Assembly (NCBI GenBank): GCA_946412245.1
Contig: CAMKGM010000023.1
Location: 1-42,256 of the forward strand
DNA from: an uncultured Bacteroidales bacterium
Lineage (GTDB): Bacteria > Bacteroidota > Bacteroidia > Bacteroidales > Muribaculaceae
Reading direction: 5' to 3'
DNA length: 42,256 nt
The position numbers and the translations under genes were made by a program. Positions 233 through 39,945 of the stretch are shown here, one piece after another. The notes under the pieces were generated by a model that was not told where the DNA came from, ran no database searches, and saw nothing but the letters and a program-made list of their open reading frames with translations. Positions within the stretch are counted from its first letter, which is position 1, and the number at the start of each line of letters is the position of its first letter.

Positions 233-1420
233 ATGGCTACACTTTCATTGACAGTAGTGCCCGGCAAGGCACTCAAGGACGGAAGACACAAAGTCCGTAT
301 CGCGGTGGCTCACCGCTCACAGACCCGCTACATCCTCACCGATGTCATCATCAACTCCACCAAAGAGTGGAAAAACGGCAAGATCGTCAAGCGTGACGAT
401 GCCACTTACCTCAACACGAAGCTGCTCCAGCGTATGCAGGAGGTACAGCGCATCATCGACGAGACTCCATACACTGAGGGAATGACCTGCGCCGAGCTGG
501 TTGCCACAATCCTGCACACGCGGGCCAAGAAGACGCACACGCTGCGGTCGGCTTTCGAGGAGATGCTGGAGGTGTCAACAGCAAAGGACACCACCAAAGA
601 ACGCTACCGCACGCAGTTCAAGTCCATCACGTCGGTTATCCCCGAAACAACGTTCATGTCACATTTCACTCCACTCATGGTCCAACGCTTCATGAAGAAA
701 CGTGGAGCCGAGATTGCACCCATCACTCTGCAGACGCAGGTGACACTGCTCTCTCAGATCGTCAAGTTCTGCCAAATGAACGGTTACACCGATTTCCGCA
801 TACCGCCAACACAGGGCTGCTACCAGCGAGTAGTTGCCGTGAGGCAGAACTGGCTTACTCCCGACCAGGTGAGGTTCATTCGCGACAACAAGACGAACCG
901 CAGAGGCTATAACAAGTTCCGTGACCTGTTCATGCTGTCCTACTACCTCGGCGGCATCAACCTCATAGACCTTGCTCACATCAACTTCAACGTGTGTGCA
1001 GATACGCTGCACTACGTCCGCACGAAGACAGAACGAAAGACAAAGGTCAATCCTTATGTAGAGTTTGAGATACCATCAGAGGCGAAGCCCATTATCGACA
1101 AGTACAAGGGTGAGGACGGCAAGTTGAAGATGTATAAGGCGGCAGACATACACCAGTGCCACTCAATGGTACGCACGGTGCGTTCCTATCGTGATGACTA
1201 TGGACTGCCGGGGCTTACGTTCTACTCGGCTCGCAAGTCTTTTGCACAGCACGCCTTTGCCCTGGGCGAGAGTGAGAGTGTGATTGACTATGTTCTTGGT
1301 CACTCACTGGGCGGTGGACACAACAAGATGCTGTTTGCCTACATCAAGGTCACGCCTGAAATGGCTACCGCATGCGTGAGAAAAGTGTGCGACTTTATCG
1401 CCTCAACGAGAAATTTTTAG
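233..1420 (+). CDS. int: Tyrosine-type site-specific integrase (integrase 1)
   Basis: Probable phage integrase, catalysing recombination between phage and host att sites. The 395-residue protein has the Bacteroidetes arrangement: N-terminal arm-type DNA-binding region (about 1-90), SAM-like core-binding domain (about 105-195) and C-terminal catalytic domain (about 210-390). Visible catalytic-domain residues are R334 in the YSAR motif (where HxxR is usual), H357 in LGHS and the candidate nucleophile Y370. The first catalytic arginine appears to be missing: the segment normally reading like YMRGM reads YLGGI, putting Gly240 at that place. The ATG follows an A/T-rich leader with no Shine-Dalgarno site. 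The gene stands alone and is followed by a -7 promoter box and a terminator. Its position next to a repeat-rich noncoding region fits an int-attP arrangement. Whether the protein is fully active is uncertain. Confidence 0.85.
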   Translation: MATLSLTVVPGKALKDGRHKVRIAVAHRSQTRYILTDVIINSTKEWKNGKIVKRDDATYLNTKLLQRMQEVQRIIDETPYTEGMTCAELVATILHTRAKKTHTLRSAFEEMLEVSTAKDTTKERYRTQFKSITSVIPETTFMSHFTPLMVQRFMKKRGAEIAPITLQTQVTLLSQIVKFCQMNGYTDFRIPPTQGCYQRVVAVRQNWLTPDQVRFIRDNKTNRRGYNKFRDLFMLSYYLGGINLIDLAHINFNVCADTLHYVRTKTERKTKVNPYVEFEIPSEAKPIIDKYKGEDGKLKMYKAADIHQCHSMVRTVRSYRDDYGLPGLTFYSARKSFAQHAFALGESESVIDYVLGHSLGGGHNKMLFAYIKVTPEMATACVRKVCDFIASTRNF

Positions 1421-3572: not shown

Positions 3573-4562
3573 ATGGAACTCAACGAACTATTGAACGAGA
3601 TTACGAAGAAGCTGCAAGGTCATGTTGCAGTAGTGCAGATATTTGTGGACGGTGAGGTGCATGTGCGCCGTGTCGGTGATGCTAATAGGCTCATCGACAA
3701 CCCGAGCCTCATACCACCGTCCTCTACCCTCTCATTTCTTGAATGGATGGCGAAACAGATTGACGAGGCGAACGTTACCAACGGAACAAAGTCTAATCAT
3801 CGCAACTGCCTCAAGCACCTGAGGCGATTCAAGCCGACAATGACTTTCGGCGACATCACATACCAAACGGTGTGCGACTTTGACCGGCATCTGCGTGCCG
3901 TAGGGCTGGCCACCAACACCATCGCCAAGGTGATGAAGATATGGCACCGCTACATCGGCATCGCCCTGGGCGAGGATCTGCTGGTGCGTGACCCGTTCCG
4001 CAAGTTCACCATCCACCGTGAGGCGACACACAAGCACTCGCTCACCGAGCGTGAGATGCGCAAGATCGAGGACGGAGCCGACACTCTGCCTGATCCCGAA
4101 CGGTCGGTGGTTCGGGCGTTTCTGTTCTCATGCTACACTGGGTTGAGATATAGCGACCTCTGCCGTGTGCGTGGCACCGATGTCCGCTCAATGGGGCGGC
4201 AGCGGTGGCTCACGCTGAAGACACAGAAGACAGGCAGCGAGGTGCGGATTCCGCTGTCTGTCACGTTCAGTGGCAAGGCCATTCCGCTCGTGTCGGGGCA
4301 GGGCAGGCTGTTTACGCTGCCTGGCAATGCCCGGGCCAACTTGCTGCTGGCTCGTGCGCTGCGTCGGCTTCACATCCGCAAGCACATCACCATGCATTGC
4401 GGACGTGTAACTTGTGCCACCATCTGCCTGCTTCGTGGCGTGCCTTTGTCCACCATTCAGCATGTGCTGGGGCATCGCTCTATCAACACGACTGCATCGG
4501 TCTATGCTCAAGTTCTCGACAACACTATATCTCGCACTATGCGCCGTGCATGGAGGGCGTAG
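3573..4562 (+). CDS. Tyrosine recombinase, predicted DNA invertase for the tail-fibre switch
   Basis: 329-residue XerC/D-like recombinase with a SAM-like core-binding domain (about 65-150) and a complete catalytic set: R192 in TGLRYSDL, K216/K219 in LKTQKTG, H275 and R278 in HCGR, H301 in LGHRS and Y311 in the VYAQV segment. It is transcribed toward the fibre gene. Its TAG stop (4560-4562) takes its last two bases from the left inverted repeat of the invertible segment, so the gene keeps the same end in either orientation. The tight physical link to a pair of identical inverted repeats is the main evidence that it inverts 4561-5538. It has its own early-type promoter. It may be incomplete as a system if a host DNA-bending factor is needed. 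Confidence 0.85.
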   Translation: MELNELLNEITKKLQGHVAVVQIFVDGEVHVRRVGDANRLIDNPSLIPPSSTLSFLEWMAKQIDEANVTNGTKSNHRNCLKHLRRFKPTMTFGDITYQTVCDFDRHLRAVGLATNTIAKVMKIWHRYIGIALGEDLLVRDPFRKFTIHREATHKHSLTEREMRKIEDGADTLPDPERSVVRAFLFSCYTGLRYSDLCRVRGTDVRSMGRQRWLTLKTQKTGSEVRIPLSVTFSGKAIPLVSGQGRLFTLPGNARANLLLARALRRLHIRKHITMHCGRVTCATICLLRGVPLSTIQHVLGHRSINTTASVYAQVLDNTISRTMRRAWRA

Positions 4563-4581
4563 TTCCCTCGGAACTAAATTC
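4561..4581 (+). repeat. Left inversion site (IRL)
   Basis: 21 bp, identical to the reverse complement of 5518-5538; the matches stop on both sides. It contains the 15-bp dyad AGTTCCCTCGGAACT (6-bp arms, 3-bp centre) followed by an A/T-rich TAAATTC, the form expected of a tyrosine-recombinase core. Read as codons it is SSLGTKF. Confidence 0.88.
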
Positions 4582-4989
4582 AACAATTCGGTCATCACTT
4601 CGTTTGATGAAATATACCTTTTCACCTCTTTGTCCGTATTGGGAGGTTTCAATGGTACTTCACTTCCTAGCATGAACGTGCCAAGCAATATCGTTACTAT
4701 AGATAATGGTGCGTTCATGGACTCATTGCTTGAAGAGATTGTGATGCCGGCCACACTTCAGGCCATTAGAGGATCTGCATTTATTGCGCACGGTAATGCC
4801 TATAGAAAATTAACTAAGGTCATCATATATGCCGAAACACCGCCTACAATGAGCAACAATGCTTTCTTGGGGCAGAATTATGTGAACATATACGTTCCCG
4901 ACGCGTCGGTTGATACATATAAATCAGCTCAATACTGGAGAGATAGCGCAAGCAAAATCAAGGGGCTGAGCGAACTTCCGTCATCATGA
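4561..4989 (+). CDS. Silent alternative C-terminal cassette of the tail fibre
   Basis: An open frame of 142 codons plus stop that has no start of its own: the same frame upstream runs through the recombinase gene out of its frame. It begins with SSLGTKF, as does the expressed fibre end from residue 1654, and is homologous to it throughout. The order is SSLGTKF, ITSF, an LFT segment, BspA-like repeats with ETPP/AETPPTMSN, then IYVPDASVDTYKSAQ near the end. Its stop TGA (4987-4989) abuts the stop of the expressed end (4984-4986), so the two versions meet tail to tail. Inversion of 4561-5538 would join it in frame to fibre residue 1653 and give a protein of about 1795 residues. In the present orientation it should not be translated. 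Confidence 0.85.
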   Translation, partial: SSLGTKFNNSVITSFDEIYLFTSLSVLGGFNGTSLPSMNVPSNIVTIDNGAFMDSLLEEIVMPATLQAIRGSAFIAHGNAYRKLTKVIIYAETPPTMSNNAFLGQNYVNIYVPDASVDTYKSAQYWRDSASKIKGLSELPSS

Positions 4990-7900
4990 TTCGGGAATAG
5001 CTTGTATCTTGGAAGCATAAGTAGACCAATTTTGTGCGGATTTATAAGCGCTGACTGACTCTGATGGGACATAGATTGCAGTGAGTTTTGAGCATCCTCC
5101 AAAAGAATTAGAATTTGACAAAGTAGGAGGTGATGTCCTGCGAACTGTTACGGTTACTAAGCTGGTATTATTTTGGAAAACACCAGTACCTATTGATGTC
5201 ACCGATGCCGGAATGTCTATGCTCTTCAATTTAGTGTTATAGCACGCATTATCTTGAATGGCGGTGAGCGTAGATGGCAATGCTAAAGTTTCTATCGGCG
5301 CACTGTTGAAAGTATTACCACCAAGTGTTGTAAGACTTGTCGGCAATGTGACATTCTTTAATCTATAACAATTTCGGAATGTTGCGTACGTGCTTGTAAT
5401 TTGGTTAGGCATAATGACGGTGACGAGATACTGACAGTTATAGAATGCACTATTTAGGTTACCCAAACCTGTGAATAATGCAAGTTCTTTAAACGATGTG
5501 ATGTTATTATTTGCTTGGAATTTAGTTCCGAGGGAACTGACTGCCGCTGCTTGCGCGGGAGTGATGCCCTCACCGACCTCAACCTTGTCATACGCTCCAG
5601 CTCCAGTGTTGGCGGTCGCCACGACATTGTAGTTGCCGGTGTTGTTCTTGTTCTGCACATACGTTCCGTCCACCAAGTCATAGCCGCCATTGCCTGCAGC
5701 AGCTGTGACGGTGAGGTCATAGCCTCCTGTGCCGCCAGCGTTAGGCTGGTACTCGGTGTGGTGGTCGCCCCAGTTGACGGCGCAGATGCGCTGCACCTCG
5801 GGGTCCTCAAAGCGGATGTAGTAGGTGTCGCACACAATCGTGAGCGTGTTGCCGAAGTAGGCACGGAGGGTGTTCAGCGTGTCCTCATACATCGGCGTAG
5901 TCACATTGATGGTGCCTTGCAGTAGCGCATGGGTATTTTCGTTTCTGACTCCTCCTTTTTCTGGGTCATAGATCACTCGACCGAATCCTGTGTTCTCGTC
6001 AGGATCATACGGCACGGCCAATGTGGCAAGCAACTCCATCTCTGCACCCGTCATGTTGATAGCTCCCTCCCATATCAGCGAAACGAAATGAAGATGGTTG
6101 CCAGCAGTGTTGAGGATGCTGTTGAGAAGTGCGATGAAGCCAATCTGTGCACAATTGTTGACATACATACCGGAAATGCTTGCCTTGGCAGTCGCACTCA
6201 AAGTCATGTGCTGATCATCAAGCATCGGCAGTGTATGCAAAAATAGGGTAATCAACTGGTCCGGGAACGACACCTCGCTGACCTTGCTGCCGATGGGCAG
6301 CAGCATGTTTGGTGCTGATGATCCTGCAAACAGTGCCTTGCGCAGACGTGGGCATCCTGCCAATGAAACGGTATTGTTCAGTGTGACCACATTGCGGCAG
6401 TCAACCTCCTCGATGCAGTCACCGCTGATGTTGAGTGTGCCGGCGTTGAACAGCACGTTGGAAGCGACGGCGTCGCCGACCTTGACACGCTGCAGTCGCT
6501 TGCCGCTGATGCTCATGGAGGAACCAACCGATGCGTCACCGCCTCGGGTGGTCAGCGCAAGACCACTCAAGTCTCCCAGTTCGGTGTACCAGTCAACACC
6601 CTTGAGATAAAATGTGGTCGTACCATCGGAGGTCGCCGTGATGGTGCATGCAGTGCCAGCGGGTGTGCGGACACCTCTGATGATCGTACCGCCACCTCGG
6701 TTGCCAGTGGGGTACATCTCAACGGCAGGTTTGATGGCGAAGTTGAACGACTGGGCAGGCGTGAACTCAAGACGGCCCATGCCATCATCGCCAGAGCCTG
6801 TGAAGGCTGCGATGCTGTATTTCGAGAACAGTGACACAAGGTGCCACTCGACCCACTTGCGCTCAGCCTCCAACTGGGTGCCGTTTGCCTGACGCAAGGG
6901 CGGCACATTGTTGTACACTGCCGTCGGGTCAAGTTCCCACACGTCAATGTACGACCAATCGGCATCGGCATTGTATGCGGTCAGCGGGAAATAGTATGCG
7001 GAGTGCTCCCAGAAGTAGTACTGCATCATGTTCATCACACTCTCATGGATGCTGGGGCCGTTCACGTTGTACTGCGAGGCAAGGGACACCAACGAGGTGA
7101 CCATCGACTCTAGCATGTCCTTGACACCGCTCTGATAGCCGTCGGGATGGTTGATGATCTCCCAGAACGATGACGAGCAGCCCTGGTAAATGTCCACACC
7201 GTCGGTGGTCACGTCACCCACCTCGACGCTCGGCGACTTTGTCTGTTGCCCATTGTTGTCGGTCATGAGGATGGTGTCCATGTCGTCCTGACACCATATC
7301 CAGCGGCCACCTTGTGCGAGGGGCTTCCACTTCATGGGGTAGGAGTTCTTGGCATGGTTGTCGCTGCAGGCAATCAACTCGCAGAATGCCTCGTGATAGC
7401 ATGCGGCATTGATTGACCAGTATCGGCTGGCTTCTGCCTTGAACTTGGCGATACGTGCGGCACGCAGTTGTGCGGTCGTGGGCGATGACGACGAAGTGAT
7501 GGCCGTCAAGTAGGTGCCGAGGTAAGCCTTGATGTTGTGCGTGACCACAACTTCATAGTCGGAGTCATAGTCCTCGAGGTTGGCAAGCACCTCATACTTA
7601 CCCGTGCTGGTGCGGTAGTAGATGAGATTGTAGTTGCTGTCATACAACTGCAGCACATCATTCTTCTTGTTGCCATAGATGTTGCGGCCTGCACGGAAGT
7701 TGTCAATGTCGGCATTCAGCGCAGAGAGCGAGTTGTAGCCAGCCTCGCTCAGAGACACGAGGAACGGTGAGCACAGGTAGGCGATGTTGTAGGCTGGCTT
7801 CCACTCCTGCTCAAAGAGCGCAAGCACATTGGCGGCATCGCTCGCCTTGTCGGTCGAGAATCGGCATGCACCGACATCCCATGCCTCCTCGCCGCCGAAA

Positions 7901-10497
7901 CACAGGGTCTCTTGCGTGTAGTCGTAGGTAACATCTATCCAGGGGTGCAGGAACCGGGTGCCGAGAGGTGCGTGGTTCGGGCCCTCGATCGAGAGCAATG
8001 ACGGGTAAGTAGTCGTGTCATAGCCGCGCGTGCCGGCATCGTTCTTTGCGGGACCGACGGTGTACAGGCCGATGAACTTGTAAGAGCCGTCAGCATACTT
8101 CTGGAAGCCGAGCATCGGGTATTGGTAGATGCTCACACGCACATCCTCGCTGGGCAGGCCGCTGCCAAGACCGACAGCCTTGAACAACTCATCGAACATG
8201 TTGCAGGCTCCCATCTTGTGGCCCTGCATGGACGATGCCACATTCTTCTTGGCCACGATGTCGTTGACCTTCGGGTGCAGACCCTTGCCGGCAATGTAGC
8301 CGCTCACATTGTCGGTCGAGCCGTCGGCATAATGCCAAACGGCACTTGACTTCTTCAACTTGTTGCGCAAGTTCCATCGGTAGTAGCGCATTGATGTGGT
8401 ACCCTGACCGCTGATGGGGGCGTTGGTGATCTGCACATTCCAAGTGGGGTGGTCTGCATACTCCAGCCACACGGTCGAATTGCCGCCAGTCGAATTGGTC
8501 AGCGAGGGTACGTCGTCATCGTTCTGCATCTGGATGACCATGGTATTGAAGCCGGCTGCCTTGCACAAGTCATACGAGATCTCACCACCGTCCATGATGT
8601 TGTTGTCATGGCGCACACCGCTGCGGGTGTAGTCCATGCCGTCGATGATTGAGTTCAAGAAGTTCTGCTTCACACTCTCGCTCTCGAGCACCTGATTGTA
8701 CACACGCATGGTATAAAGGTATAGATCGGCACTTGCCTGGCCGAGACGCAGTGGGCCACTGCCGAACGAACCAGTGCCGTCGTACTCGAATACGCACTGC
8801 TGCACACCATTGATGTAGATACGGCAGAGGTTGCGACCGGTGGCCTTGTACAGGCGCTGCAGCACGACCACCACATGCAGGATCCTGTCCTCGCTCAGTT
8901 GCACCGTCTGCGGGGTTATCTGCCTGTCTGTGGACGAGAGCACCACAAGTCGGGTGGGGAAGAGGATAATGCCGTTGGTGGTGGCTGCGTTGTAGGTCGG
9001 CGTGCTCATCAGTGACAGGATAGGCGTATCGTAGTCGCTGATGTTGCTGCATCTGTACTTAAACTCAATAGACACACTGCCCACCGATGCGCGGGTCAGC
9101 GGAGTGAGGTCTCCCACTTCGACCGTGCTGCCAGCCTTGATGACGAGGCACTTGTTACTGTCGCTGTCCTGGTACCAGCCATCGGTAGACCATGACATGT
9201 TCGTCCACTCGGCATCATACGATGCTACAGTGGCTCCTGTGGCAGCGTTGATGATCTCTGCACGGTCTGCACTACCGTTGCTGCGGTTTGCTGAGTTCAT
9301 GTAGAACACGGCACCCTCCACTGCGGCATAAGACTGGGAGTTGTCGATGTCGGTGCGCATCATGGCGGTCATGCCGTCCACCGCCGCGGCGATGGTCAAC
9401 TTGAAGTCATTGCCCTCGATGTCAACCTCAAGTGCCTTGGTGTAATCCACCTTGGTTTGTGTCTGCACACTGATGGCCTCGTGGTCAACCACAACGATGG
9501 CCTCATTCCCGTTCTGGGCAGTCAGTGTCACCTCCACCTGTGTGGCGTTGTAGGTGGCGAAGCGGAACAGGCGCTGCGTCTCGTAGTTCACGGCGGGATT
9601 GATGATCTCGTTGATGCACACCAGCGACACCTGATTGATGTGCTGTGTCTCCACGCACATCACATTGTACTTGTAGTGTTGCGTCTCAACTCCGTCTCCG
9701 GCCAGCCATATCTCGATAGTGTGGACACCTGTCTCGCCGGGAAAGTGGTCCGTTATGATGAACTCATAAGGAGCGGTCGTGTAGTTCGTGCCTGACGGGA
9801 AGGTGCGTGTATAGGTCTGCTCGTCGTCATCGTCGATGCGGACATACAGCGTCTTCTGCAGGTTGCCGGAGAAATACAATCCGTTGATGGCATACTCCTC
9901 GCCCTCGAGCCAGGGATTGTTCCAGTTGTAGCGGGAGGTCAGTGTCAGCGAGGTGACCGAAGCCGTGAATGTCGTGGTCTTGGTCTGTCCCGAGTCCTTG
10001 CCCGTGACCGCCACTTTCACACGGTTGGTTCCCACCGAGAGGTAATTGCGCACATTCTGCGTGATGGTCGCTCCACTGAGGCAGTCACCGCTGGCCTTCT
10101 CGACGAAAGACCCGCCACCGTTGTCCACAAGCAGCGACCAATGATAGTCCTCGGCAAAGGGTGTCATCTCGCCGCCGAGCGTTCCGCTCTTGGTCGACGG
10201 AGTGACATTGATGTTTGCCACGGTGTCGTCCTTCAGCACATAGAACGAACTGGGCGTGGTGCTTGTCAGCGTGATGGCGTACACCGTACCGCTCAGTGGC
10301 ACGATGCCCAACTGAGTGCCGCCCTCGCTGTCGTAGAACACAATGTTGCCGTTCTCGTAGGTGATCCAGCCCACCTTCCCCTCGGTCGCAGCCTGCAGCG
10401 CGGCCAGCTGCGCCTTGATGAACTCCTCCACGCGGCTAAACTTGTAGCCCTCCCACGGGGTGCCAATGCCCGGTATTCTCTCGTCAATTCCTGCCAT
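4984..10497 (-). CDS. Giant tail fibre / receptor-binding protein with switchable C-terminus
   Basis: 1837 residues, the last and largest gene of the tail operon. Visible parts, in order: N-terminal virion-attachment region; Ig-like or beta-rich segments to about 460; a LamG/concanavalin-like domain (about 470-620); and a region of about 690-1100 with CotH-kinase-like features, namely QGTTSM near 698, the DNH segment D1046-N1047-H1048 and DDMD at 1071-1074. Beta-rich repeats follow (about 1300-1500), then a Gly/Asn-rich linker (about 1590-1650), then BspA-like leucine-rich repeats of the LRR_5 type (1654-1837). From S1654 on it lies inside the invertible segment. Role by position and domains: host-surface recognition. 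The CotH assignment is inferred from motifs only. The start at 10497 is 24 bp after the preceding small gene. Confidence 0.85.
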   Translation of the reverse strand: MAGIDERIPGIGTPWEGYKFSRVEEFIKAQLAALQAATEGKVGWITYENGNIVFYDSEGGTQLGIVPLSGTVYAITLTSTTPSSFYVLKDDTVANINVTPSTKSGTLGGEMTPFAEDYHWSLLVDNGGGSFVEKASGDCLSGATITQNVRNYLSVGTNRVKVAVTGKDSGQTKTTTFTASVTSLTLTSRYNWNNPWLEGEEYAINGLYFSGNLQKTLYVRIDDDDEQTYTRTFPSGTNYTTAPYEFIITDHFPGETGVHTIEIWLAGDGVETQHYKYNVMCVETQHINQVSLVCINEIINPAVNYETQRLFRFATYNATQVEVTLTAQNGNEAIVVVDHEAISVQTQTKVDYTKALEVDIEGNDFKLTIAAAVDGMTAMMRTDIDNSQSYAAVEGAVFYMNSANRSNGSADRAEIINAATGATVASYDAEWTNMSWSTDGWYQDSDSNKCLVIKAGSTVEVGDLTPLTRASVGSVSIEFKYRCSNISDYDTPILSLMSTPTYNAATTNGIILFPTRLVVLSSTDRQITPQTVQLSEDRILHVVVVLQRLYKATGRNLCRIYINGVQQCVFEYDGTGSFGSGPLRLGQASADLYLYTMRVYNQVLESESVKQNFLNSIIDGMDYTRSGVRHDNNIMDGGEISYDLCKAAGFNTMVIQMQNDDDVPSLTNSTGGNSTVWLEYADHPTWNVQITNAPISGQGTTSMRYYRWNLRNKLKKSSAVWHYADGSTDNVSGYIAGKGLHPKVNDIVAKKNVASSMQGHKMGACNMFDELFKAVGLGSGLPSEDVRVSIYQYPMLGFQKYADGSYKFIGLYTVGPAKNDAGTRGYDTTTYPSLLSIEGPNHAPLGTRFLHPWIDVTYDYTQETLCFGGEEAWDVGACRFSTDKASDAANVLALFEQEWKPAYNIAYLCSPFLVSLSEAGYNSLSALNADIDNFRAGRNIYGNKKNDVLQLYDSNYNLIYYRTSTGKYEVLANLEDYDSDYEVVVTHNIKAYLGTYLTAITSSSSPTTAQLRAARIAKFKAEASRYWSINAACYHEAFCELIACSDNHAKNSYPMKWKPLAQGGRWIWCQDDMDTILMTDNNGQQTKSPSVEVGDVTTDGVDIYQGCSSSFWEIINHPDGYQSGVKDMLESMVTSLVSLASQYNVNGPSIHESVMNMMQYYFWEHSAYYFPLTAYNADADWSYIDVWELDPTAVYNNVPPLRQANGTQLEAERKWVEWHLVSLFSKYSIAAFTGSGDDGMGRLEFTPAQSFNFAIKPAVEMYPTGNRGGGTIIRGVRTPAGTACTITATSDGTTTFYLKGVDWYTELGDLSGLALTTRGGDASVGSSMSISGKRLQRVKVGDAVASNVLFNAGTLNISGDCIEEVDCRNVVTLNNTVSLAGCPRLRKALFAGSSAPNMLLPIGSKVSEVSFPDQLITLFLHTLPMLDDQHMTLSATAKASISGMYVNNCAQIGFIALLNSILNTAGNHLHFVSLIWEGAINMTGAEMELLATLAVPYDPDENTGFGRVIYDPEKGGVRNENTHALLQGTINVTTPMYEDTLNTLRAYFGNTLTIVCDTYYIRFEDPEVQRICAVNWGDHHTEYQPNAGGTGGYDLTVTAAAGNGGYDLVDGTYVQNKNNTGNYNVVATANTGAGAYDKVEVGEGITPAQAAAVSSLGTKFQANNNITSFKELALFTGLGNLNSAFYNCQYLVTVIMPNQITSTYATFRNCYRLKNVTLPTSLTTLGGNTFNSAPIETLALPSTLTAIQDNACYNTKLKSIDIPASVTSIGTGVFQNNTSLVTVTVRRTSPPTLSNSNSFGGCSKLTAIYVPSESVSAYKSAQNWSTYASKIQAIPES
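5518..5538 (-). repeat. Right inversion site (IRR)
   Basis: 21-bp partner of 4561-4581 in inverted orientation and inside the fibre coding sequence (codons for S1654 to F1660). The flanking bases differ on both sides, so the identity ends sharply at the repeat. Confidence 0.88.
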
Positions 10498-10520
10498 ATT
10501 ATTGATGTGTTGTTTAGTCG

Positions 10521-10679
10521 TTAGTTATGCCATGTGTTGTCACTATGCCAGACCAGCTCGCCCCGCCAGTATGAGGCCACCTTGCTCCACACCAGGCGTG
10601 TGCCCTTGTAGATGGCCATGATGGCGCGGCTGCCCTTCTGTACCAGCCCCACACGGCGGTTGTCGCGATAGATGCTCAT
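10521..10679 (-). CDS. Small tail-associated protein, 52 residues
   Basis: Begins MSIYRDNRRVGLVQKG and ends DNTWHN. It contains the segment IMAIYKGTRLVWSK, a short beta-rich 'IYKG..LVW' pattern that recurs in Bacteroidales phage fibre and tail proteins. The ATG overlaps the stop of the upstream gene (ATGA). It sits between two tail genes in the same operon, so it is probably a small structural or fibre-assembly component. No catalytic motif is visible. The function is not known. Confidence 0.6.
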   Translation of the reverse strand: MSIYRDNRRVGLVQKGSRAIMAIYKGTRLVWSKVASYWRGELVWHSDNTWHN

Positions 10680-11128
10680 GACTCGTAGATGAAGTATTTG
10701 GTGTTGGGGTCAATCGTGCCGGCGTCAATCATCGCGTTGTACTCCGCCTCCGTGCAGTAGACCTCGGCCAAAGCCTCTAATTGTTCGGCCACAATCCTCA
10801 GGCTGCCCTGCATCAGGCCAAAGTCCGAGGCCAGTCTGTCCAGGCCGTCGCCATTGATGTCCACCTGGCGTTGAAGGCGCAACAAGTTACTGGATACGGT
10901 GTTTATGCCGGTCCACATTTCAGCCTTGTATGCCTCGATGGCTGTCTCTGCAGCACTGTACAACTGGTCGTAGAGCACGGAGTACTCTACCCTTCGCCCA
11001 CCATTGAGCTCGATGTTGTCACCGCTCGTCATCGTTGTGACTGGCGTCAGCTGCATGATGGTGCGGCCGTTGGTCTTCAAAGCGGCGATAACAGCCTGTA
11101 CTATCTCTTGTTTTTCTTCGGGTGTCAT
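10676..11128 (-). CDS. Tail protein of unknown role, 150 residues
   Basis: Starts MTPEEKQEIVQAVIAAL, a helical region. The middle contains a heptad-like stretch (about 55-115), and the end is a compact EAEYNAMIDAGTIDPNTKYF segment of the type found at the ends of phage fibre or baseplate proteins. The N-terminal TPEEKQ..V...I..L pattern is common in small fibre-linked proteins. Its ATG overlaps the stop of the preceding tail gene and its stop overlaps the next ATG. Probably a fibre adaptor or trimeric structural protein, by context. Confidence 0.6.
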   Translation of the reverse strand: MTPEEKQEIVQAVIAALKTNGRTIMQLTPVTTMTSGDNIELNGGRRVEYSVLYDQLYSAAETAIEAYKAEMWTGINTVSSNLLRLQRQVDINGDGLDRLASDFGLMQGSLRIVAEQLEALAEVYCTEAEYNAMIDAGTIDPNTKYFIYES

Positions 11129-11970
11129 ATCTCAAGAATTATTACGTTAGAGTTCTCGGTGCTGTCTATTCTGTCAAGGGTGTCGTTCACCCGGCGGATG
11201 GCAACTTGGCTCTCATCCTCATAGTCTGCATCAATGCGTACGGTCTTGCGCAACTGCTGAGTGAACACAAAGGAGTCAAGGCCTTCTATTAAGATCTCTT
11301 TGTTTGGCACATTATTGCTCTCACGCACATAGCGCACGGCATTGACGTACACGAACTGGCAAGTGAGCAGTCTGTTAAGCAGAGCGCCGAACCACACAGG
11401 GACACCGATAGAGTTGCCCATCGTGAAGGTCTTGATGATGTAGTCGCTGGCATACAGTTCAACGACATCCTGATACTGCGTAGTGAACTGTTCGTTCTCC
11501 ACCCCGAGCTCCCACCCAGAATCCTTGAAACCGCCAGGGACACGGAAGTCGAAGAAATAATGTACTCCGTCTATGATGAACGCCACGTCATCACGCTGCT
11601 TGTTGTCCTTGTTGCTGTACTGCAACAGCGTGGTCTTAGACAAGATGCCCTCGTCGCTCGTGATGCGGAACACCTCACACGTCTTGTCTGCGATAGTCAG
11701 ATAATAGAAGCCGTCAGACAGACCGCAATATACGTGGAAGAACACTATCGTGTCGTCATTTATCTCCCATTCGTTCCATGTGATGGTTCCGATGGCGGTA
11801 TCGGTGCAGGCATCATAGAGCGTTGCCGTTGGAGCAGTCTCCTCGGCATCGGCAACGACCTGTATCATTATCTGGTCGGTTGGCGCAAACACTTGCGTGT
11901 AACGGCTGTGAAGACCGTCGGAGGCGTTGCTTTCAGCGAAATTCAGCGGTGTAAATGGACTTAACTTCAT
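11125..11970 (-). CDS. Tail-tip / baseplate protein of unknown family, 281 residues
   Basis: Beta-rich protein, starting MKLSPFTPLNFAE, with no signal peptide, membrane segment or catalytic motif seen. It lies between the 707-residue tail-tip protein and the fibre-adaptor genes and overlaps both neighbours by 4 nt. Second genes in such operons usually encode distal-tail or baseplate connectors. That role is inferred from order alone. Confidence 0.6.
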   Translation of the reverse strand: MKLSPFTPLNFAESNASDGLHSRYTQVFAPTDQIMIQVVADAEETAPTATLYDACTDTAIGTITWNEWEINDDTIVFFHVYCGLSDGFYYLTIADKTCEVFRITSDEGILSKTTLLQYSNKDNKQRDDVAFIIDGVHYFFDFRVPGGFKDSGWELGVENEQFTTQYQDVVELYASDYIIKTFTMGNSIGVPVWFGALLNRLLTCQFVYVNAVRYVRESNNVPNKEILIEGLDSFVFTQQLRKTVRIDADYEDESQVAIRRVNDTLDRIDSTENSNVIILEI

Positions 11971-15948: not shown

Positions 15949-16554
15949 TTACAGGAACATTCCCATACTGGGAGGCATCTTCGCCAATGCTTTGCTCCGC
16001 TCGCTGGCAGAATGGACCAGGTTGGCATAGATGGCGGCGTTGAGCGTGGCAGGGTCAATGCTGGTCTTCAACATCGACATCACGAAAGCAATCTCACTGT
16101 ACCATGACTTGCGGATGTCTTGCGTCTTAGTCACTATCTTAGTCACTTTTTCCTGACTAAGTTCCTCGTGACGCTTGATTTCATACACCACCTCGTCGAG
16201 CATCGCCTTGCAGCGCGTCTTCACCTTTTCGTCGGTGTCAATGAGGTGGGGCGATACGTCAAGTTCGAGCAGAACGTCCCTCGCCATGTCGGGGCGGTCT
16301 TGGCTGCAAAGCGCGAAGCACAGCCGCAAACACTTCTCCTTCATGCGGAGTTTCAGCAGTTCCTCGGCTTCGAGCATATCTATCTTCGCTTGTGACGGCG
16401 ATGCGAGGCTCTTGTACTCATCGAGCAGTCGGGCGGCTCGCTCTATCATCTCTTCCTCGGTGGGTTTCTCGTCACCCACGAGCAGAACCGACCTGTCACC
16501 ACACGACAAGTCTATAAGGTTCTGCAACGTCAGTTGGTCAAGTCGTTCAATCAT
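15949..16554 (-). CDS. Conserved-context protein after the tape measure, 201 residues
   Basis: All-helical charged protein (starts MIERLDQLTLQNL, ends PPSMGMFL) with no domain I can name. It overlaps the tape-measure gene by 4 nt and lies just before a terminator, so it is the last gene of the long structural transcript. In siphoviruses this place often holds a tail-tip connector; that is only a positional guess. Confidence 0.6.
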   Translation of the reverse strand: MIERLDQLTLQNLIDLSCGDRSVLLVGDEKPTEEEMIERAARLLDEYKSLASPSQAKIDMLEAEELLKLRMKEKCLRLCFALCSQDRPDMARDVLLELDVSPHLIDTDEKVKTRCKAMLDEVVYEIKRHEELSQEKVTKIVTKTQDIRKSWYSEIAFVMSMLKTSIDPATLNAAIYANLVHSASERSKALAKMPPSMGMFL

Positions 16555-19500
16555 ATTCTACGGGCGATGTATGCGTTAAACTTTTGGCGTTTCAGTTGGC
16601 GCGCCATGTCAGTGCGGAAGTCTCGTAGTTCTCGGGTCACGGCTTTGGTGTTGCTCGCCACACGGCCTTCCAGTGCGGTGTAGTCGTTGATGATGATCGG
16701 CGCACCCGTCAAGCGGTCGCGAGGAATGTTCGACACCGCTCCCATGAGGGCGACACGCTCGGCATCGGGTAGCACCTCCGCGCCCTTCGGCAGATCCACA
16801 AGCGTCGGGCTGTCGGGAGTGACCCACGCCTTGCCGTTGTACAGCACCAACTCGGCTTTGTCTGCATCACCCACAAGGGCGAGGCCACCGGGGTGAGGCT
16901 TCTTCGTGCCATCGGCATAAGCCTTGATGGGCTGCGCCAACGCGGTGGCGATTTGCACGGCACCCATCGCGCCGACAAACACCGAAAGTGGAATGTTCGG
17001 TGGCCACATGGCGAGAGCCTGCATGATACCGAGAGCGGTGGCGATGCCGATTTGAGCAATGCTGTTCGCTTTCTCCATGACGGCTTTCTTATATTCCAGT
17101 TGCGCCTTGCGTTTCTCCAACTGCTCTTGCTTTGCAGCGGTGGCGGCAGCGGCTTCACGCTTGCGGAATTCGGCCTCCTCACTGGTGATGGCACCACGCT
17201 CGGCGAGGTACTCGATGTGTTCCACCTCTTGGTCGTAACGCTGCTGCTCGGCCTCAAGAAGTTCATCAATCTTGGCGATTTGGTTGTCGTACATGGCGGA
17301 CATAAACTCGCCGATGCGCTGAATGGCTTCGCCGGCCTTCTGCACCCATTCCTGGGCGTTCTCTATGCGCTGGTCACGAGCCTTCTTGTCGGCATCATTG
17401 ACACGCTGGATTGCGGCTATCTCTGCGTCAGCCTCCGCATTAGCGATGTCAGCCTGCGCCTTTGCCATATTCTGCGCGAGTTGTACGGCTTCGTCATGCG
17501 CCATACCCATCTTTTCAAGCAAATCAGCGTTGGCTTCAACGTTACTGAGGTCGTCTACGAAATACTCAAAAGTTCCATCTCCACGGAATGCCTCAAGCTG
17601 TTTCTTGTAAGCGTCCATCTGTCTCTTGGCTGTCTCAATGGCATATCGCTCCTGTGCCTCGGCTGATAGATTGGCATACCTGTCACGAATTGCTTGTATC
17701 GCAGCTTCATTGTGGCCGACGGCTTTGATTTCCTCGGCCTCATGCATCTTGAGTGCGGCGAGACGTTGTTGTAATATTGCGTCTTGCTCGGCTTGCTCCA
17801 TAGCGGCGGAGCCTGCAATTTGGTCGAGGCGTTTCTTGAGGTAATTCTGGTTCAAGTCAAGTATCTGCTTGTTGTACTTGTCGAAGATAATTTGCACGTC
17901 GGCACCAGTCTTGGCGGCTTCTCTTACCTCCAACTCATACTGCCTGTCAAGTTCAACCATCTTGAGGTGGTATTCCTCCTCGCTTCCTTCCTCGACAGCG
18001 GCGAGGCGGTTTTTGAGGTCTATCTCGGCTCGGTTCGCGTCGTAGGCGGCTTGGGCTTGGGCGACCTTGACAGCGCACTCTTTAGTGAGGGCGACTCGCA
18101 ACTGCTGCTCTTTCTCACTGTTCCCTTTGATGGTATCGAGCTTCTTTTTATACTCAAGGCGAATGAGTGCGAGGGTCTTAGCGATGCCGTCCTCCATAGC
18201 ATTGATTTTAGCCTCTTCAAGCTTCTCAATGATTTTCAACTCTTCCTGTGCTGCTTTATCCAACGCCTTTGACCTGCCACCGCCATTGCCCTCGGTGTCA
18301 GAGCCTCCACCGCCACCGCCATTGATGCGCCCAGTTCCTCCGCCACCGACATCAGCACTGCCAACAGTGCTGTAATCAAGCAGGGCAACTTTCTTGGGAC
18401 GCAGCACGGCATTCATGCTATCCATTAAGTTGTTGCCGATTTCCGTGCCAAAAGCTTTCGCATCGTTGGCCACCTCTGTCCATGTGACCTTGAAGTTGTC
18501 CATGAGCTGGTTGAAACCACTGGCAACCTTTTCGGGACTAATCGTAAACACGCCCTCCACTATATCGCCAAGCGCATGGAGCGAACGGCCCATGGCTTTG
18601 ATTGCATCGATAATGACGTTGAAGATGACTTTCAATGCGGCATATGTCGTGCGCCAGCCGTTGTAAATCGCTTGGACACCTGCGCGCACAACGAGGCTCT
18701 CGTTGTACCAGTCAATGAAATAGTTGATGAGGTCAACGACCCACTTGATGGCGGCGACAAGCCCCTCCTTAATCCAAATTTTCGCTTTGGTGGTCACGCT
18801 CTCAAATCCTCCACCTGTGATGTCGAACAACGAGGCGACGACATCCTCGAGCTCTTTGTTCACCTCGACCTCTTTCAGCTTCAACCGCTGTAAACTATCC
18901 TCCTTGCCCAGCAGTTCTTCCATGCCCTTGTTGCTCTCTGCGAGGAAGTTGATGAAGCCCTCACCGATGGCGGACTCACCCCGTGCACCGAACAACTCCT
19001 TCATCACGATGGCAGCCTCTTTTGAGTCACTTCCCATCTCTTGGAGTTTTCCGGCTATCTCGCTCATAGCCTGACTGACGGACTTCTCGCCATTCTGTAC
19101 CTGTCGGCTCATCTCGGCGGCATCAATGCCGATGCCCTTCAACGAAGCTGCGGTCTTATCGCTCATGGTGCGCAGTTGCAACGAGGCTTTGCCCATAGCG
19201 GTCAAGGCACGCTGCGAGTTTACACCAGCTTTCTCTATTTGTGACATGGCGGCGACCATCTCCTCGGCACTCATGCCCATCTTGTCGAAGGTGGGCGCGA
19301 AGCGTTCAAGGTTGGAGAGGAACTGCTGGCTATTCACACCGCCAGCGGCGAAACCTTTTGCAATTAAATCGGTCGCCTCGTTCACGCTCACGCCCATATT
19401 GGCGGCGATGGCATTTGCCGTTTTCAGCGTAGCGGTAAAGTCTTGGTTGAATGTGTCGGCGACTGCCTGCACGTTGTCACGGACAGAGCGCATGGCATCA

Positions 19501-20975
19501 CCTGTCAACCCTGTGAAATATTTGGTCAGGCGGCTGGCCTCTACCAGTCCCTTGTTGTAGTCGTAGAACCATTTGAACCCCGCGACCACACCTGCGACGG
19601 CGAGAACGTATGGGTTCTTGAGCAAACCGAGCAATGTATTGCCGAAAGCCTTAAGACTATTGCCCATGCCAGTAAGCATTGACCCTCCTTGTGCGGCATT
19701 GGCAGACAGCGACTTCAGCGACGAGCCGAAGTTGTTGTTCACTCCTATAAGATTTGTGATTTGCTGGAACAGGTTATTGCTCGCCTGGGCATTGTCACGA
19801 AGGCTCCCTGCGTTCTGCTGAATATAGTTCTTGTTCGATTGGATCTGCGCGTTATAGGTGCGGATTTTATCCGCTGCTCCTGCACTGCGGTCATCAATCA
19901 GCTTCAATGCCTCAGCGAGCCTGCGGTTCTGTTGCTCGGCTTCCTCCACCGAATGAGCCTGCACACCGAGAATGTCGCTCACATCGGAAATGCGTTGCTT
20001 GTTCTCGGCAATCTTGGCATTGATGCGCTCCAGCGTCTGCGCATAGTTTGCGTCTTGTGTGTCAAGTTTGGTTTTCGCATCTTCCAGGGCTTTGTTCTGC
20101 TCGATGCAACCCTCAATGGTGGCGGCATTCATGCCCAACACCCTGTTTAGGTCATCCATCGAAGCGACACCATTTTGCAGGGCGATAGCGTAATCACCTA
20201 CATTGCGGTGGTGCTCACCCATCAATTCGTCTTGGTGTTTCAGTTCGTTGCTCAACTGCTGCTCGGATTGAATGAGCAACTGCAATTCCTCGGTAGTGAG
20301 AGAAGTCGCATCATCGCTTCGCAAGGCTTGTTTCAGACGCACAAGTGATTGGGACATATTCTCATAACTGCCCTCTGCGCTATTCATTATCTTCTGGTCG
20401 GCATTGATGATGCTCTGCAACTTCTGTGAAGCAACAGTTAGTTCTGTCTTCCTCGCAGTAACTTGTGCGAGCCTGTCGGCATATTGCTGTTGGGTAATCA
20501 TGCCGTTGTCAAACCGCTTTTTCAAGTCACTCATCTCTTTGTTGACCTGTGCGATTTGTATTTTGTACTGCGCTTGCAGGTGGATGTTCTGCTGTAACGA
20601 GCCGAGTACCTTGTCGGTGACTGCCATCGCCTCACGATTGACGCTTGTCGCCTGACGTGTGGCCTCATTGGCTTGTGCCTGCCTCTGTAACTGCTCGGCA
20701 ATGGCGGCGGTGGTGCGCCCGATTATCTGCTGTTGCTGCTGCAACTGCTGGGTGTATTGCTGTGTGGCCTGGCTCGCTTGCTGAAAGGTGTTGCTGGTAA
20801 GCTCACGAAGCCTTTCAAGGTCGCCGTTAACTACCACAGGGACCTTGATGCCTTGCGCCAATTCACGGGCACAATTCTGGAACTGCGTCAGCGTGCCCTC
20901 CATCTTGCGGTCCAACTCTTCCAGCTGGTCTAACGCCTGCTGCGACACAAGGTCGGTAATCAGTGTCTCGTTCAT
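16551..20975 (-). CDS. Tape-measure protein
   Basis: 1474 residues. Long coiled-coil-like stretches rich in Q, A, E and K cover about 1-430 and 900-1350. A hydrophobic membrane-type segment lies at about 452-476 (NPYVLAVAGVVAGFKWFYDY), then the TMP core with GMSAEEMVAAMSQIEKAGV and a Gly-rich linker (about 880-900). The C-terminal part is a hydrophilic tail. It sets tail length and is threaded through the tail tube; at about 0.15 nm per residue it would correspond to a tail of roughly 220 nm. Its length and the absence of a sheath protein indicate a siphovirus-like tail. Confidence 0.9.
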   Translation of the reverse strand: MNETLITDLVSQQALDQLEELDRKMEGTLTQFQNCARELAQGIKVPVVVNGDLERLRELTSNTFQQASQATQQYTQQLQQQQQIIGRTTAAIAEQLQRQAQANEATRQATSVNREAMAVTDKVLGSLQQNIHLQAQYKIQIAQVNKEMSDLKKRFDNGMITQQQYADRLAQVTARKTELTVASQKLQSIINADQKIMNSAEGSYENMSQSLVRLKQALRSDDATSLTTEELQLLIQSEQQLSNELKHQDELMGEHHRNVGDYAIALQNGVASMDDLNRVLGMNAATIEGCIEQNKALEDAKTKLDTQDANYAQTLERINAKIAENKQRISDVSDILGVQAHSVEEAEQQNRRLAEALKLIDDRSAGAADKIRTYNAQIQSNKNYIQQNAGSLRDNAQASNNLFQQITNLIGVNNNFGSSLKSLSANAAQGGSMLTGMGNSLKAFGNTLLGLLKNPYVLAVAGVVAGFKWFYDYNKGLVEASRLTKYFTGLTGDAMRSVRDNVQAVADTFNQDFTATLKTANAIAANMGVSVNEATDLIAKGFAAGGVNSQQFLSNLERFAPTFDKMGMSAEEMVAAMSQIEKAGVNSQRALTAMGKASLQLRTMSDKTAASLKGIGIDAAEMSRQVQNGEKSVSQAMSEIAGKLQEMGSDSKEAAIVMKELFGARGESAIGEGFINFLAESNKGMEELLGKEDSLQRLKLKEVEVNKELEDVVASLFDITGGGFESVTTKAKIWIKEGLVAAIKWVVDLINYFIDWYNESLVVRAGVQAIYNGWRTTYAALKVIFNVIIDAIKAMGRSLHALGDIVEGVFTISPEKVASGFNQLMDNFKVTWTEVANDAKAFGTEIGNNLMDSMNAVLRPKKVALLDYSTVGSADVGGGGTGRINGGGGGGSDTEGNGGGRSKALDKAAQEELKIIEKLEEAKINAMEDGIAKTLALIRLEYKKKLDTIKGNSEKEQQLRVALTKECAVKVAQAQAAYDANRAEIDLKNRLAAVEEGSEEEYHLKMVELDRQYELEVREAAKTGADVQIIFDKYNKQILDLNQNYLKKRLDQIAGSAAMEQAEQDAILQQRLAALKMHEAEEIKAVGHNEAAIQAIRDRYANLSAEAQERYAIETAKRQMDAYKKQLEAFRGDGTFEYFVDDLSNVEANADLLEKMGMAHDEAVQLAQNMAKAQADIANAEADAEIAAIQRVNDADKKARDQRIENAQEWVQKAGEAIQRIGEFMSAMYDNQIAKIDELLEAEQQRYDQEVEHIEYLAERGAITSEEAEFRKREAAAATAAKQEQLEKRKAQLEYKKAVMEKANSIAQIGIATALGIMQALAMWPPNIPLSVFVGAMGAVQIATALAQPIKAYADGTKKPHPGGLALVGDADKAELVLYNGKAWVTPDSPTLVDLPKGAEVLPDAERVALMGAVSNIPRDRLTGAPIIINDYTALEGRVASNTKAVTRELRDFRTDMARQLKRQKFNAYIARRI

Positions 20976-38038: not shown

Positions 38039-38818
38039 TTAAAAATTAAACAAATTCATTTGCTTGGGCGCTGATGGCAATGATGGCTCCACAACTTTCT
38101 CGGCTTCTTGTGAAAGGTCAACTGGTTCTTTTGCGAGGCTTCGCTTTGTGAGCTCATTTCGTCTTGCACAATATTCCTGCTCCGATAACTTGCGAATGCA
38201 ACAACATGGATTTGGAATAGGCCATTTGATTTCATTGACCTCATAAGCACCGATGAAGTTTTGTTCAAGGGCATCATGATGGACAACCTGGCCAAGCATT
38301 CCGTGTATCATGAAATTAAGGGTGCACATTTTCACGCAGACGGGGTCAAGATCTTCGGCATAGTAATAATAAAACTTTGTTTTGTCGCTCTTCACGAAGT
38401 GAGCAAGCAAGGTTCGTCCGCTACCACATGCACAGTCATTGACGGTTCGCATTTCGGGTGAGTAGGTAAGTTCCGCCATCACTTGACACAGGTCCAACGG
38501 AGTGAAAAACTGCCCCATTGCAGATGACTTAAACTTGCCTTTGACAGCTTCCTCATACATCGTGCCGAAGAAGTCATAGGCACCATCTTTGTTGATGCCC
38601 TGTGTAGCAAGCTCCAACCACCTAACGAGCAATTCAAACATATCGGGATTGTCCTGCTTTCGTTCAGCCAACAATGCAGGGTAGTTACACTTGTGACGCA
38701 TTACCCTGTCTGTGTCGAATGTCTCGATGAAAAAGTCCAGCATCTCCTCAAAGGCGATGGAAAAGTCCTTGCCGGTCTTGTAAGCGTATGCCCCCAACTT
38801 ATCTATTGATTTTTTCAT
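38039..38818 (-). CDS. N6-adenine DNA methylase-like protein without a normal motif IV
   Basis: 259 residues. The HsdM/N6_Mtase pattern is visible: GQFFTPLDLCQVMAEL (about 101-116) and motif I DCACGSGRTLLA (about 131-142). The expected NPPY/F motif IV is not present; the best candidate reads PNPCC. It may be an inactive or divergent methylase protecting phage DNA. The ATG overlaps the recombinase stop (TAATG), so it is coupled to it. Confidence 0.7.
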   Translation of the reverse strand: MKKSIDKLGAYAYKTGKDFSIAFEEMLDFFIETFDTDRVMRHKCNYPALLAERKQDNPDMFELLVRWLELATQGINKDGAYDFFGTMYEEAVKGKFKSSAMGQFFTPLDLCQVMAELTYSPEMRTVNDCACGSGRTLLAHFVKSDKTKFYYYYAEDLDPVCVKMCTLNFMIHGMLGQVVHHDALEQNFIGAYEVNEIKWPIPNPCCCIRKLSEQEYCARRNELTKRSLAKEPVDLSQEAEKVVEPSLPSAPKQMNLFNF

Positions 38819-39945
38819 TACCAGTTCACGTTTTTGTTAAACATTCGCTTCTGTTCTTCTTGACTTCTCTTGATGTAAATCATGGTCGTGTCAAGTCCGC
38901 TATGACCTAACAGGTCGGCAAGTTCTGTCACGTCCTTAGTCTTGCTCCGCTTGAGGTACATCTTGGCAAAGAAATGCCGGAACGCATGAGGGTGACACTT
39001 TTTGGCGTCAACTCCAGCGCGGTTGGCCATGGTGTGTAATAGTTGGGCTATACCACGAGTCGAGCAAACGCCACCAGTTCGACTGACGGCAATGGTTCCT
39101 TGCAAATTGTTTCTTTCGGCATATTCGGCACACTCCTGCTGTACTTTTGGCGTGAAGAAAAATCTCCTAACCTTGCTTCCTTTGCCCTTGAGATCCACAT
39201 GACCGGCGGCCACCATCTCGTAGGTGAACATCACGAACTCATGAACTCGTGCCCCAGTGGTAGAGAGAAGTCTTATCCAAATGTAGGCCTTCTCATTGTG
39301 AGCCTTGCAATAGGCAAGTAATTTTTCAACCTCTTTCTCTGTAGGCACGTTTTCAAGGCTCAATGTACGAGGTATCTTCGTATGCTTGATTTCTATGTGC
39401 TTGCCGAGATATTTTGCAAGTGCCGCAACAGCGTTGAGCCTGTTATTGACTGTCCTGGGCAATTTCCCTTGCTCTTCCATGGCAGCCTTATAGCCTTTTA
39501 CAACCTCGGTGGTAATTGAGGTTGAATAGCATAGGAAATCTTTTGCCCCAGATATATAGCCTCTCACCGTGTTCTGGCTGTATGCGTTCTCTTTGACAAG
39601 CCATTCCGAAAAGCCGTTCAAAATCTGCTGAGCCTTTTCGTCAAGCCTTGACCGCTTCTCTAAAGCCTTCGCCCGCACTCGCTTTTTGACTCCACCTATT
39701 TGCACTCCACACCATGAGAGGAAGTCGCCGATGGCTTTTTGCTGCTTTTGACTTAGGTGAAACTCGGCGGCGTGAGATTTGCGATACTTGGTATATCCCC
39801 GCTTGCTCACCTCATCGACTTCGGTCAGGAAGTCATAGACATATCCGAGGTGATGGTCGGGAGAGCCGGCACCTTTGGCGGTAACATGTGCCGTATATGA
39901 GCAAAACAATTCTTGCTTATCGGGTGATAATTTAGTCCTCTTCAT
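38818..39945 (-). CDS. Third tyrosine recombinase (XerD-like)
   Basis: 375 residues. N-terminal about 100-residue extension, SAM-like domain (about 110-200), catalytic domain with TGARVHEF, KGKGSKVRR, HAFRH, LGHSG and the nucleophile near Y357 (TMIYIKRS). All catalytic positions are present. It is transcribed with an HNH gene upstream and a methylase-like gene downstream. Its DNA target is not visible here. Confidence 0.85.
   Translation of the reverse strand: MKRTKLSPDKQELFCSYTAHVTAKGAGSPDHHLGYVYDFLTEVDEVSKRGYTKYRKSHAAEFHLSQKQQKAIGDFLSWCGVQIGGVKKRVRAKALEKRSRLDEKAQQILNGFSEWLVKENAYSQNTVRGYISGAKDFLCYSTSITTEVVKGYKAAMEEQGKLPRTVNNRLNAVAALAKYLGKHIEIKHTKIPRTLSLENVPTEKEVEKLLAYCKAHNEKAYIWIRLLSTTGARVHEFVMFTYEMVAAGHVDLKGKGSKVRRFFFTPKVQQECAEYAERNNLQGTIAVSRTGGVCSTRGIAQLLHTMANRAGVDAKKCHPHAFRHFFAKMYLKRSKTKDVTELADLLGHSGLDTTMIYIKRSQEEQKRMFNKNVNW

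Follow-up and report, generated by a model that had tools for sequence, protein, structure and literature searches.

Organization of the adhesin locus

The window analyzed here is a stretch of 42,256 nucleotides that makes up one entire contig (G000:C23; CAMKGM010000023.1) of the 3.17-Mb, 138-contig genome of an uncultured Bacteroidales bacterium of the family Muribaculaceae (GCA_946412245.1). It contains a gene for a large phage tail adhesin whose 3' end lies next to a gene for a tyrosine recombinase. Two alternative C-terminal ends of the adhesin, referred to below as tip cassettes, converge between inverted copies of a short repeat; one is the present end of the adhesin, and the other is silent (Table 1). 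As set out below, we consider this arrangement very probably to be a phage shufflon with two cassettes, the smallest version of a type found in related phages.

A preliminary description of this DNA, made from the sequence alone, had reported perfect 21-bp inverted repeats at the ends of the segment, and their arms are indeed 100% complementary. At a spacing of 300-2000 bp, no longer inverted repeat occurs in the window. In 100 simulated windows (first-order Markov), the longest inverted repeat at that spacing was 16 bp (mean 12.8), and the 21-bp repeat is therefore beyond chance. The host genome holds just these two copies of the 15-mer AGTTCCCTCGGAACT, allowing one mismatch at most. The two convergent cassettes are homologous as described, with 60 of 187 aligned columns identical (32%, E 1e-20), and Pfam LRR_5, the BspA type of leucine-rich repeat (LRR), matches each of them. 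Their TGA stop codons overlap in the same six bases. The recombinase gene is intact, and its TAG stop codon (4560-4562) takes the first two bases of the left repeat in such a way that inversion leaves the stop unchanged. With the segment read inverted, the adhesin of 1837 residues would become one of 1795.

In the 3573-4562 product, Pfam recognizes a SAM-like core-binding domain (Phage_int_SAM_5, 6e-17) and a catalytic domain (Phage_integrase, 7e-16). Residues R192, K219, H275, R278, H301 and Y311, which we take to be the catalytic residues of a tyrosine recombinase, are invariant in all 12 aligned recombinases, a set that includes two (L060 and L061; L numbers are our own locus handles) from records where no array was found. 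The NCBIfam matches, to Xer, integron integrase and tyrosine-type invertase, are all under their cut-offs. A serine-recombinase switch of the Gin/Cin/Min type was considered and rejected on the Pfam and NCBIfam results, by which the enzyme is a tyrosine recombinase. Neither of the other two tyrosine recombinases in the window shows significant similarity to it (best E 0.45), and the adjoining enzyme is distinct from the integrase, as in the Rin-like shufflons discussed below.

The adhesin matches PHROG 24896 (6e-108), a family of unknown function. An AlphaFold model of residues 1600-1837 has a mean pLDDT of 85, with values of 92-99 for the LRR part by blocks of ten and an average below 50 for the first 40 modelled residues. 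Foldseek matched the tip model to LRR surface proteins of Bacteroides (E 4e-8 to 1e-6) and, in BFVD, to LRR proteins of siphoviruses. The TM-scores are modest, at 0.33-0.47 for the four best PDB matches when taken by query length. The adhesin is presumably the receptor-binding tip, and its alternative tips presumably recognize different receptors.

Table 1. Features of the adhesin locus and of the remainder of the window
Feature	Position	Strand	Remarks
Tyrosine recombinase, proposed invertase	3573-4562	+	329 aa; stop overlaps left site
Left recombination site	4561-4581	+	7-bp core CCCTCGG at 4565-4571; right arm from 4572
Silent tip cassette	4561-4989	+	142 codons from site; BspA-type LRR; in phase with site
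TCATGA	4984-4989		Overlapping stops of both convergent cassettes
Expressed tip cassette	4984-5538	-	Present adhesin end; 184 codons from site; BspA-type LRR
Right recombination site	5518-5538	-	Within adhesin gene; 7-bp core at 5528-5534
Large tail adhesin	4984-10497	-	1837 aa as sequenced; constant part 5539-10497; downstream of tail genes
Tape-measure protein	16551-20975	-	Same strand as adhesin; PHROG search
Second tyrosine recombinase	233-1420		Arm-DNA-bind_5; PHROG integrase
Third tyrosine recombinase	38818-39945

Related arrays carry up to six tips

Relatives were gathered by searching with the recombinase, the site pattern and the constant adhesin end. Comparison with related phages, which the preliminary description had recommended, yielded 14 arrays besides the window. 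Together, the 15 arrays hold 62 sites and two to six LRR tip cassettes each, mostly arranged tail to tail, and complete cassettes span 117-254 codons. There are two cassettes in the window, L028, L047 and L074; three in L051 and L023, the latter truncated at its contig end; four in L050, L048 and L037; and six in L049, L040, L076, L072, L052 and L012. The window itself thus has the layout of a plain two-way switch, and 11 of the 15 arrays have more than two cassettes (3-6). Tail-adhesin inversion by an adjoining tyrosine recombinase, as first proposed, is backed by the 14 further arrays; what was described as a self-contained switch between two ends is better seen as a reduced shufflon. Duplicates were counted once (L010/L029/L050/L067, L008/L021/L048/L069, L009/L030/L049/L068, L011/L020/L051/L070, L012/L025, L013/L052/L081, L037/L078, L040/L079, L047/L082, L023/L071 and L032/L074), and L004/L014, with one cut cassette, was left out of the array count.

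The recombinase search of IMG/VR returned five close relatives and one at 47% identity. A strong recombinase homologue is present on the contig in 13 of the 15 arrays, window included, the exceptions being L023, whose contig ends within the array, and L047/L082. Among 31 site-pattern loci, 17 were dropped, the pattern lying outside any LRR adhesin end as judged by translation, and 14 are real, three of them (L022, L039 and L041) with a single site. Three phage records with recombinases of 33-36% identity (MT835728, BS-TP2 and MT837781) gave no array; MT837781 has one chance-like site match with a 32-codon frame, and the site search of BS-TP2, with none found, covered 36000-57555 and left out 12932-35999. 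In L064 (MT835639, a human faecal phage scaffold), a 62-bp inverted repeat (15440-15501/16557-16618) joins two convergent LRR adhesin ends. It was set aside, having no matching core and no recombinase by profile search of the record.

Several arrays depart from the usual layout. On the 10.7-kb contig L012, other genes separate the six sites into groups of four and two, and there are two adhesin ends; this may reflect a real second array or a misassembly. In L051 two cassettes lie in direct order, compatible with a past deletion. Contigs L077, L073, L014 and L023 stop at the array or shortly inside it (L077 five bases past the core), as would happen if the assembly had broken on several orientations.

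Anatomy of the recombination sites

The dyad described for the repeat is present in the window. In relatives its left half depends on position, and the common element is a 7-bp core with a right arm. The left side of a site varies according to whether it lies at the adhesin, inside the array or at the recombinase; the core is uniform within each array, with four versions across arrays (CCCTCGG, CCATCGG, CAATCGG and CGCTCTC); and the right arm, of type AACTnnnTTC, travels with the cassette. Across 42 sites from 11 arrays, the left 16 nt reach at most 0.87 bit per column; core and right-arm columns of this set are partly fixed by the search pattern. A T two places left of the core is found in all 42 sites; L072, L074 and L076 together have 14 sites, of which 12 have it (in L072, not all do). 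Because this base is near-constant, the exchanged stretch may slightly exceed 7 bp. Codon phase is kept at the sites, which encode S-S-L/I-G-T, or T-S-L-S-T in L052. When the third core base was left free (C or A) in one site search, no array mixed both. Tyrosine recombinases need an overlap region that matches between partners, and one core per array with four between arrays is what would be expected of such a region.

The overlap of the recombinase stop with the site had been described as part of what makes the switch unusual. It proves to be a trait of the lineage: the stop runs into the 4 nt left of the core in all seven close loci (window, L050, L048, L049, L051, L012 and L014). Among the other loci, for 13 examined in all, it falls 0-1 nt before those 4 nt in L040, L037, L072 and L076, and neither overlaps nor abuts in L028 and L074. 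Tail-to-tail cassette frames overlap by 4-14 nt at their ends in all 13 pairs examined (seven loci).

Cassettes change position between related phages

We defined a shared cassette pair as cassettes of two different phages with at least 80% nucleotide identity over at least 80% of their length. Seven of 11 such pairs occupy different position classes (adhesin-attached, inner or recombinase-adjacent), and three of these seven differ in being adhesin-attached in one phage and silent in the other. Over the 20 nt flanking the core on either side, the moved pairs agree at 4-10 positions on the left and at 16-20 on the right. Related phages are therefore rearranged with breakpoints at the repeat, none of these involving the window's own cassettes. 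L008 and L009, whose flanks are 93-94% alike, differ by the reversal between sites of a ~900-bp recombinase-adjacent block (9993-10891). The block is 86.6% identical overall; one cassette is 99.4% identical, and its partner is a diverged paralogue. The two phages further differ by an added cassette pair and by the tip on the adhesin. The window and L010 have flanks that are 99.2, 85.6 and 95.9% alike, yet have no common cassette.

Cassettes are more alike than flanks in eight of the 11 shared pairs. The values are 98.9-100% versus 93-94.5% in L048/L049, and 97.8-98.3% versus 89.5% (adhesin) and 68.5% (recombinase) in L050/L012, these two comparisons together giving six shared pairs; the two pairs of L037/L040 are at 91-94% versus 83-87%. 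In L037/L047, L040/L047 and L040/L076, cassettes at 87, 80 and 87% are not clearly more alike than flanks at 83-88%. Because of the excess in eight pairs, some exchange of cassettes between phages, by site-specific or homologous recombination, seems likely.

Silent cassettes are mostly under purifying selection

We estimated dN/dS for 16 cassette pairs, namely ten of the 11 shared pairs (the eleventh is identical) and six less similar, hand-chosen pairs; some share members. Thirteen pairs are silent in both genomes. One of these is saturated, and the remaining 12 give dN/dS values of 0.06-0.71, the two with dS above 1.5 being rough estimates. The bootstrap upper bound is below 1 in nine of the 12, and three pairs with few changes are compatible with 1. 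By these estimates, doubly silent cassettes are mostly under purifying selection. Values below 1 are not expected of relics, and silent cassettes are therefore probably expressed at times.

A retroelement on distant relatives of the adhesin

Shufflon sites are present in 13 of 25 adhesin relatives, and in two others (L073 and L077) the contig ends at or just past the first site. In place of the sites, five more (L085-L089; 25-26% identity, in parts of the query) carry a reverse transcriptase (RVT_1; the L086 match is under the curated cut-off) and an A-biased repeat pair. Mismatches within the pair fall at A of one copy in 14/14 cases each in L085, L086 and L087, in 16/17 and 15/15 in L088, and in 14/14 and 11/12 in L089; the remaining repeat pairs of L087-L089 are without A bias. 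In L087, the A-biased pair sits in a second gene beside the adhesin homologue. A reverse transcriptase and A-biased repeats also accompany the distant adhesin homologue of L091. Neither shufflon sites nor a reverse transcriptase with such a repeat were found in the other five (L075, L080, L083, L084 and L090), some of whose contigs end soon after the adhesin.

Hankyphage p00, for which diversity-generating retroelement (DGR) activity on the tail fibre is reported in the available text of PMC12135933, has a 2,239-aa adhesin homologous to that of the window (tblastn 21.7%, 54% of a 799-aa query, E 5e-10), with an A bias of 10/10 at its 3' end, adjoining its reverse transcriptase. These distant homologies, at 22-26% identity, suggest one adhesin family with two diversification machines, shufflon or DGR. 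A bolder idea, which we hold only tentatively and think rather doubtful, is that of a shared cassette economy, in which the recombinase would also move tips between co-resident phages at the core, in an integron-like manner, and the adhesin backbone would be a scaffold for an LRR shufflon or for a DGR with another tip.

A probable two-tip shufflon and its alternatives

In the proposed mechanism, the 3573-4562 tyrosine recombinase would bind both inverted sites and exchange strands in or about the core CCCTCGG. Segment 4561-5538 would invert, joining the constant adhesin, in frame, to either BspA-type LRR tip, and the other tip would stay silent, reversed, behind the recombinase gene. Recombinase-driven switching is strongly supported, because in relatives the cassettes relocate with breakpoints at the core and cassettes silent in both genomes are mostly under purifying selection. 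Related phages can probably change what they stick to. The two-tip reduced shufflon of the window is real and probably active; that the 3573-4562 product is the inverting enzyme, and that inversion of the window copy would change the receptor, we infer.

Several observations weigh against this reading. Four of the 11 shared pairs stayed in the same position class, and two of the seven moved pairs involve the oddly laid-out L012. Sites were sought by patterns of known cores, a method that can miss other cores and partly builds in the uniformity of the core. The L022, L039 and L041 adhesins carry one site, with no second in the stretch examined, which for L022 and L039 ends ~2 kb beyond it. The window phage was assembled through in one orientation only, and the second is without record. 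Its own cassettes were not found elsewhere: in IMG/VR the expressed one is unmatched by tblastn and the silent one has a single weak relative (38% amino acid identity), and in 397 family genomes DNA of the silent cassette matched only the window's copy. The exact 21-mer has no match in IMG/VR, nor has DNA 3573-5538, within which alone the expressed cassette was sought in genomes, in the phage collection. In 101 genus genomes the latter query found its own copy, three stretches of 33-49 bases and G014 of the same genus (69%), whose contig stops partway through the first cassette. At E<=1e-50, the recombinase search of the 397 genomes returned only the window's own; G014, matched by DNA, was absent. 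Finally, L047/L082 has two intact cassettes, although all that is left of the usual recombinase is the final 34 codons.

One alternative is homologous recombination from phage to phage at conserved ends of the cassettes, with no site-specific inversion within one phage. It would fit the greater similarity of shared cassettes than of flanks in eight of 11 pairs, as well as the differing tail-to-tail partners of related phages, which show that exchange occurred by some route. It is nevertheless improbable, given that similarity begins at the core, that sites are in inverted order with the recombinase gene ending at the array, and that a block is reversed between flanks 93% alike.

Somewhat less probable again is that the recombinase is mainly a phage integrase, the inverted repeat and second tip being a frozen relic or by-product. 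Its gene is close to one contig end, and the 47%-identical homologue in L015 (Prevotella sp. UBA2739) is followed by what we read from translations as SusC/SusD-like genes, as if at a prophage edge. The window, however, has two further tyrosine recombinases dissimilar to this one, one of them a PHROG integrase, and in relatives the cassettes move and are mostly under purifying selection. L015 belongs to the same branch as L052, in which it is the start of the recombinase gene, and not its end, that adjoins the array; a dual role including integration is possible for the recombinase of this branch.

Inversion of the segment in trans, by some other recombinase of the host or a prophage, is the least probable, since a strong homologue accompanies 13 of 15 arrays, with the qualification that in L074 an HNH endonuclease gene (9248-11432; NUMOD4, HNH_3, NUMOD1) separates the array from a more distant recombinase, and despite the L082 array without the usual enzyme. 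L047/L082 has a distant recombinase-like open reading frame beyond the remnant (E 4e-12). L037/L078, another contig under the same IMG genome id, has an intact recombinase that could act in trans. L074 keeps the last 44 codons of its closer recombinase at the site, the remainder being gone, and because L082 and L074 both retain the gene end though the rest is lost, this end is perhaps part of the site.

Context of the window and comparison with known systems

Elsewhere, the window carries phage genes for capsid, portal, terminase, tape measure and amidase. A 23-bp direct repeat lies near both window ends, at 1454 and 40766; it is possibly an attachment core, which would put the 233-1420 recombinase outside.

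The preliminary description had considered a tyrosine recombinase on a phage receptor-binding protein unusual, but there are precedents. The available text of two reports describes the Rin shufflon, with a tyrosine recombinase beside alternative C-termini of a receptor-binding protein, in Bifidobacterium prophages (PMC6109161) and likewise in Eggerthella lenta clade 1 prophages (PMC8778435). Shared with the window are a phage tyrosine recombinase, an asymmetric short repeat per cassette and a separate integrase. The phylum differs, and the likeness is one of function. As far as those texts go, the bifidophage ends have 95-100 residues (PMC6109161), whereas here BspA-type LRR tips sit on an adhesin of ~1.8 thousand residues; and unlike Rin, the site here encodes S-S-L/I-G-T and consists of a 7-bp core plus right arm, cassettes are paired tail to tail with stops that overlap, and in the window lineage the recombinase stop extends into the site. 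The name Bifidobacterium appears on none of the 18 phage records matched (E<=1e-15); the Rin prophages may be outside that collection.

The sfx sites of R64 are described in the accessible part of PMC11852207 as having a variable left arm, a 7-bp core and a conserved right arm. This is the anatomy found here, and R64 Rci/sfx also shares a shufflon invertase and several alternative adhesin segments; R64, however, is a plasmid with a pilus adhesin and other site sequences, rather than a phage adhesin. Gin, Cin and Min of Mu, P1 and p15B switch a phage tail-fibre gene by inversion, as proposed here, but are serine recombinases according to the text available (PMC6109161), whereas the enzyme here is not. 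Hankyphage p00, as portrayed in the same partial source as above (PMC12135933), likewise diversifies the 3' end of a distantly homologous adhesin, but by reverse transcriptase and template repeat rather than inversion. The accessible part of PMC8042965 contains nothing on phage tail inversion. Among the matches listed in the open literature (titles and abstract openings, with subscription papers and preprints outside), we found no such shufflon in a Bacteroidota phage, which is weak evidence of absence. Shufflons in which a tyrosine recombinase acts on a phage receptor-binding protein, and the R64-type site anatomy, are thus already known; apparently new are the Bacteroidota phage lineage, the LRR tips, the coding site, the signs of cassette passage between phages and the DGR on distant adhesin relatives.

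Bacteroidota hosts vary their surface by DNA inversion, and their phages appear to reply in kind, with inversion applied to the adhesin. The arrays provide, on one backbone, natural sets of tips, so that recognition of a surface by a tip is directly testable. They also offer tyrosine invertases with a simple apparent site rule, a matching 7-bp core. If one adhesin family is indeed served by two unrelated machines, the pay-offs of shufflon and retroelement could be compared.

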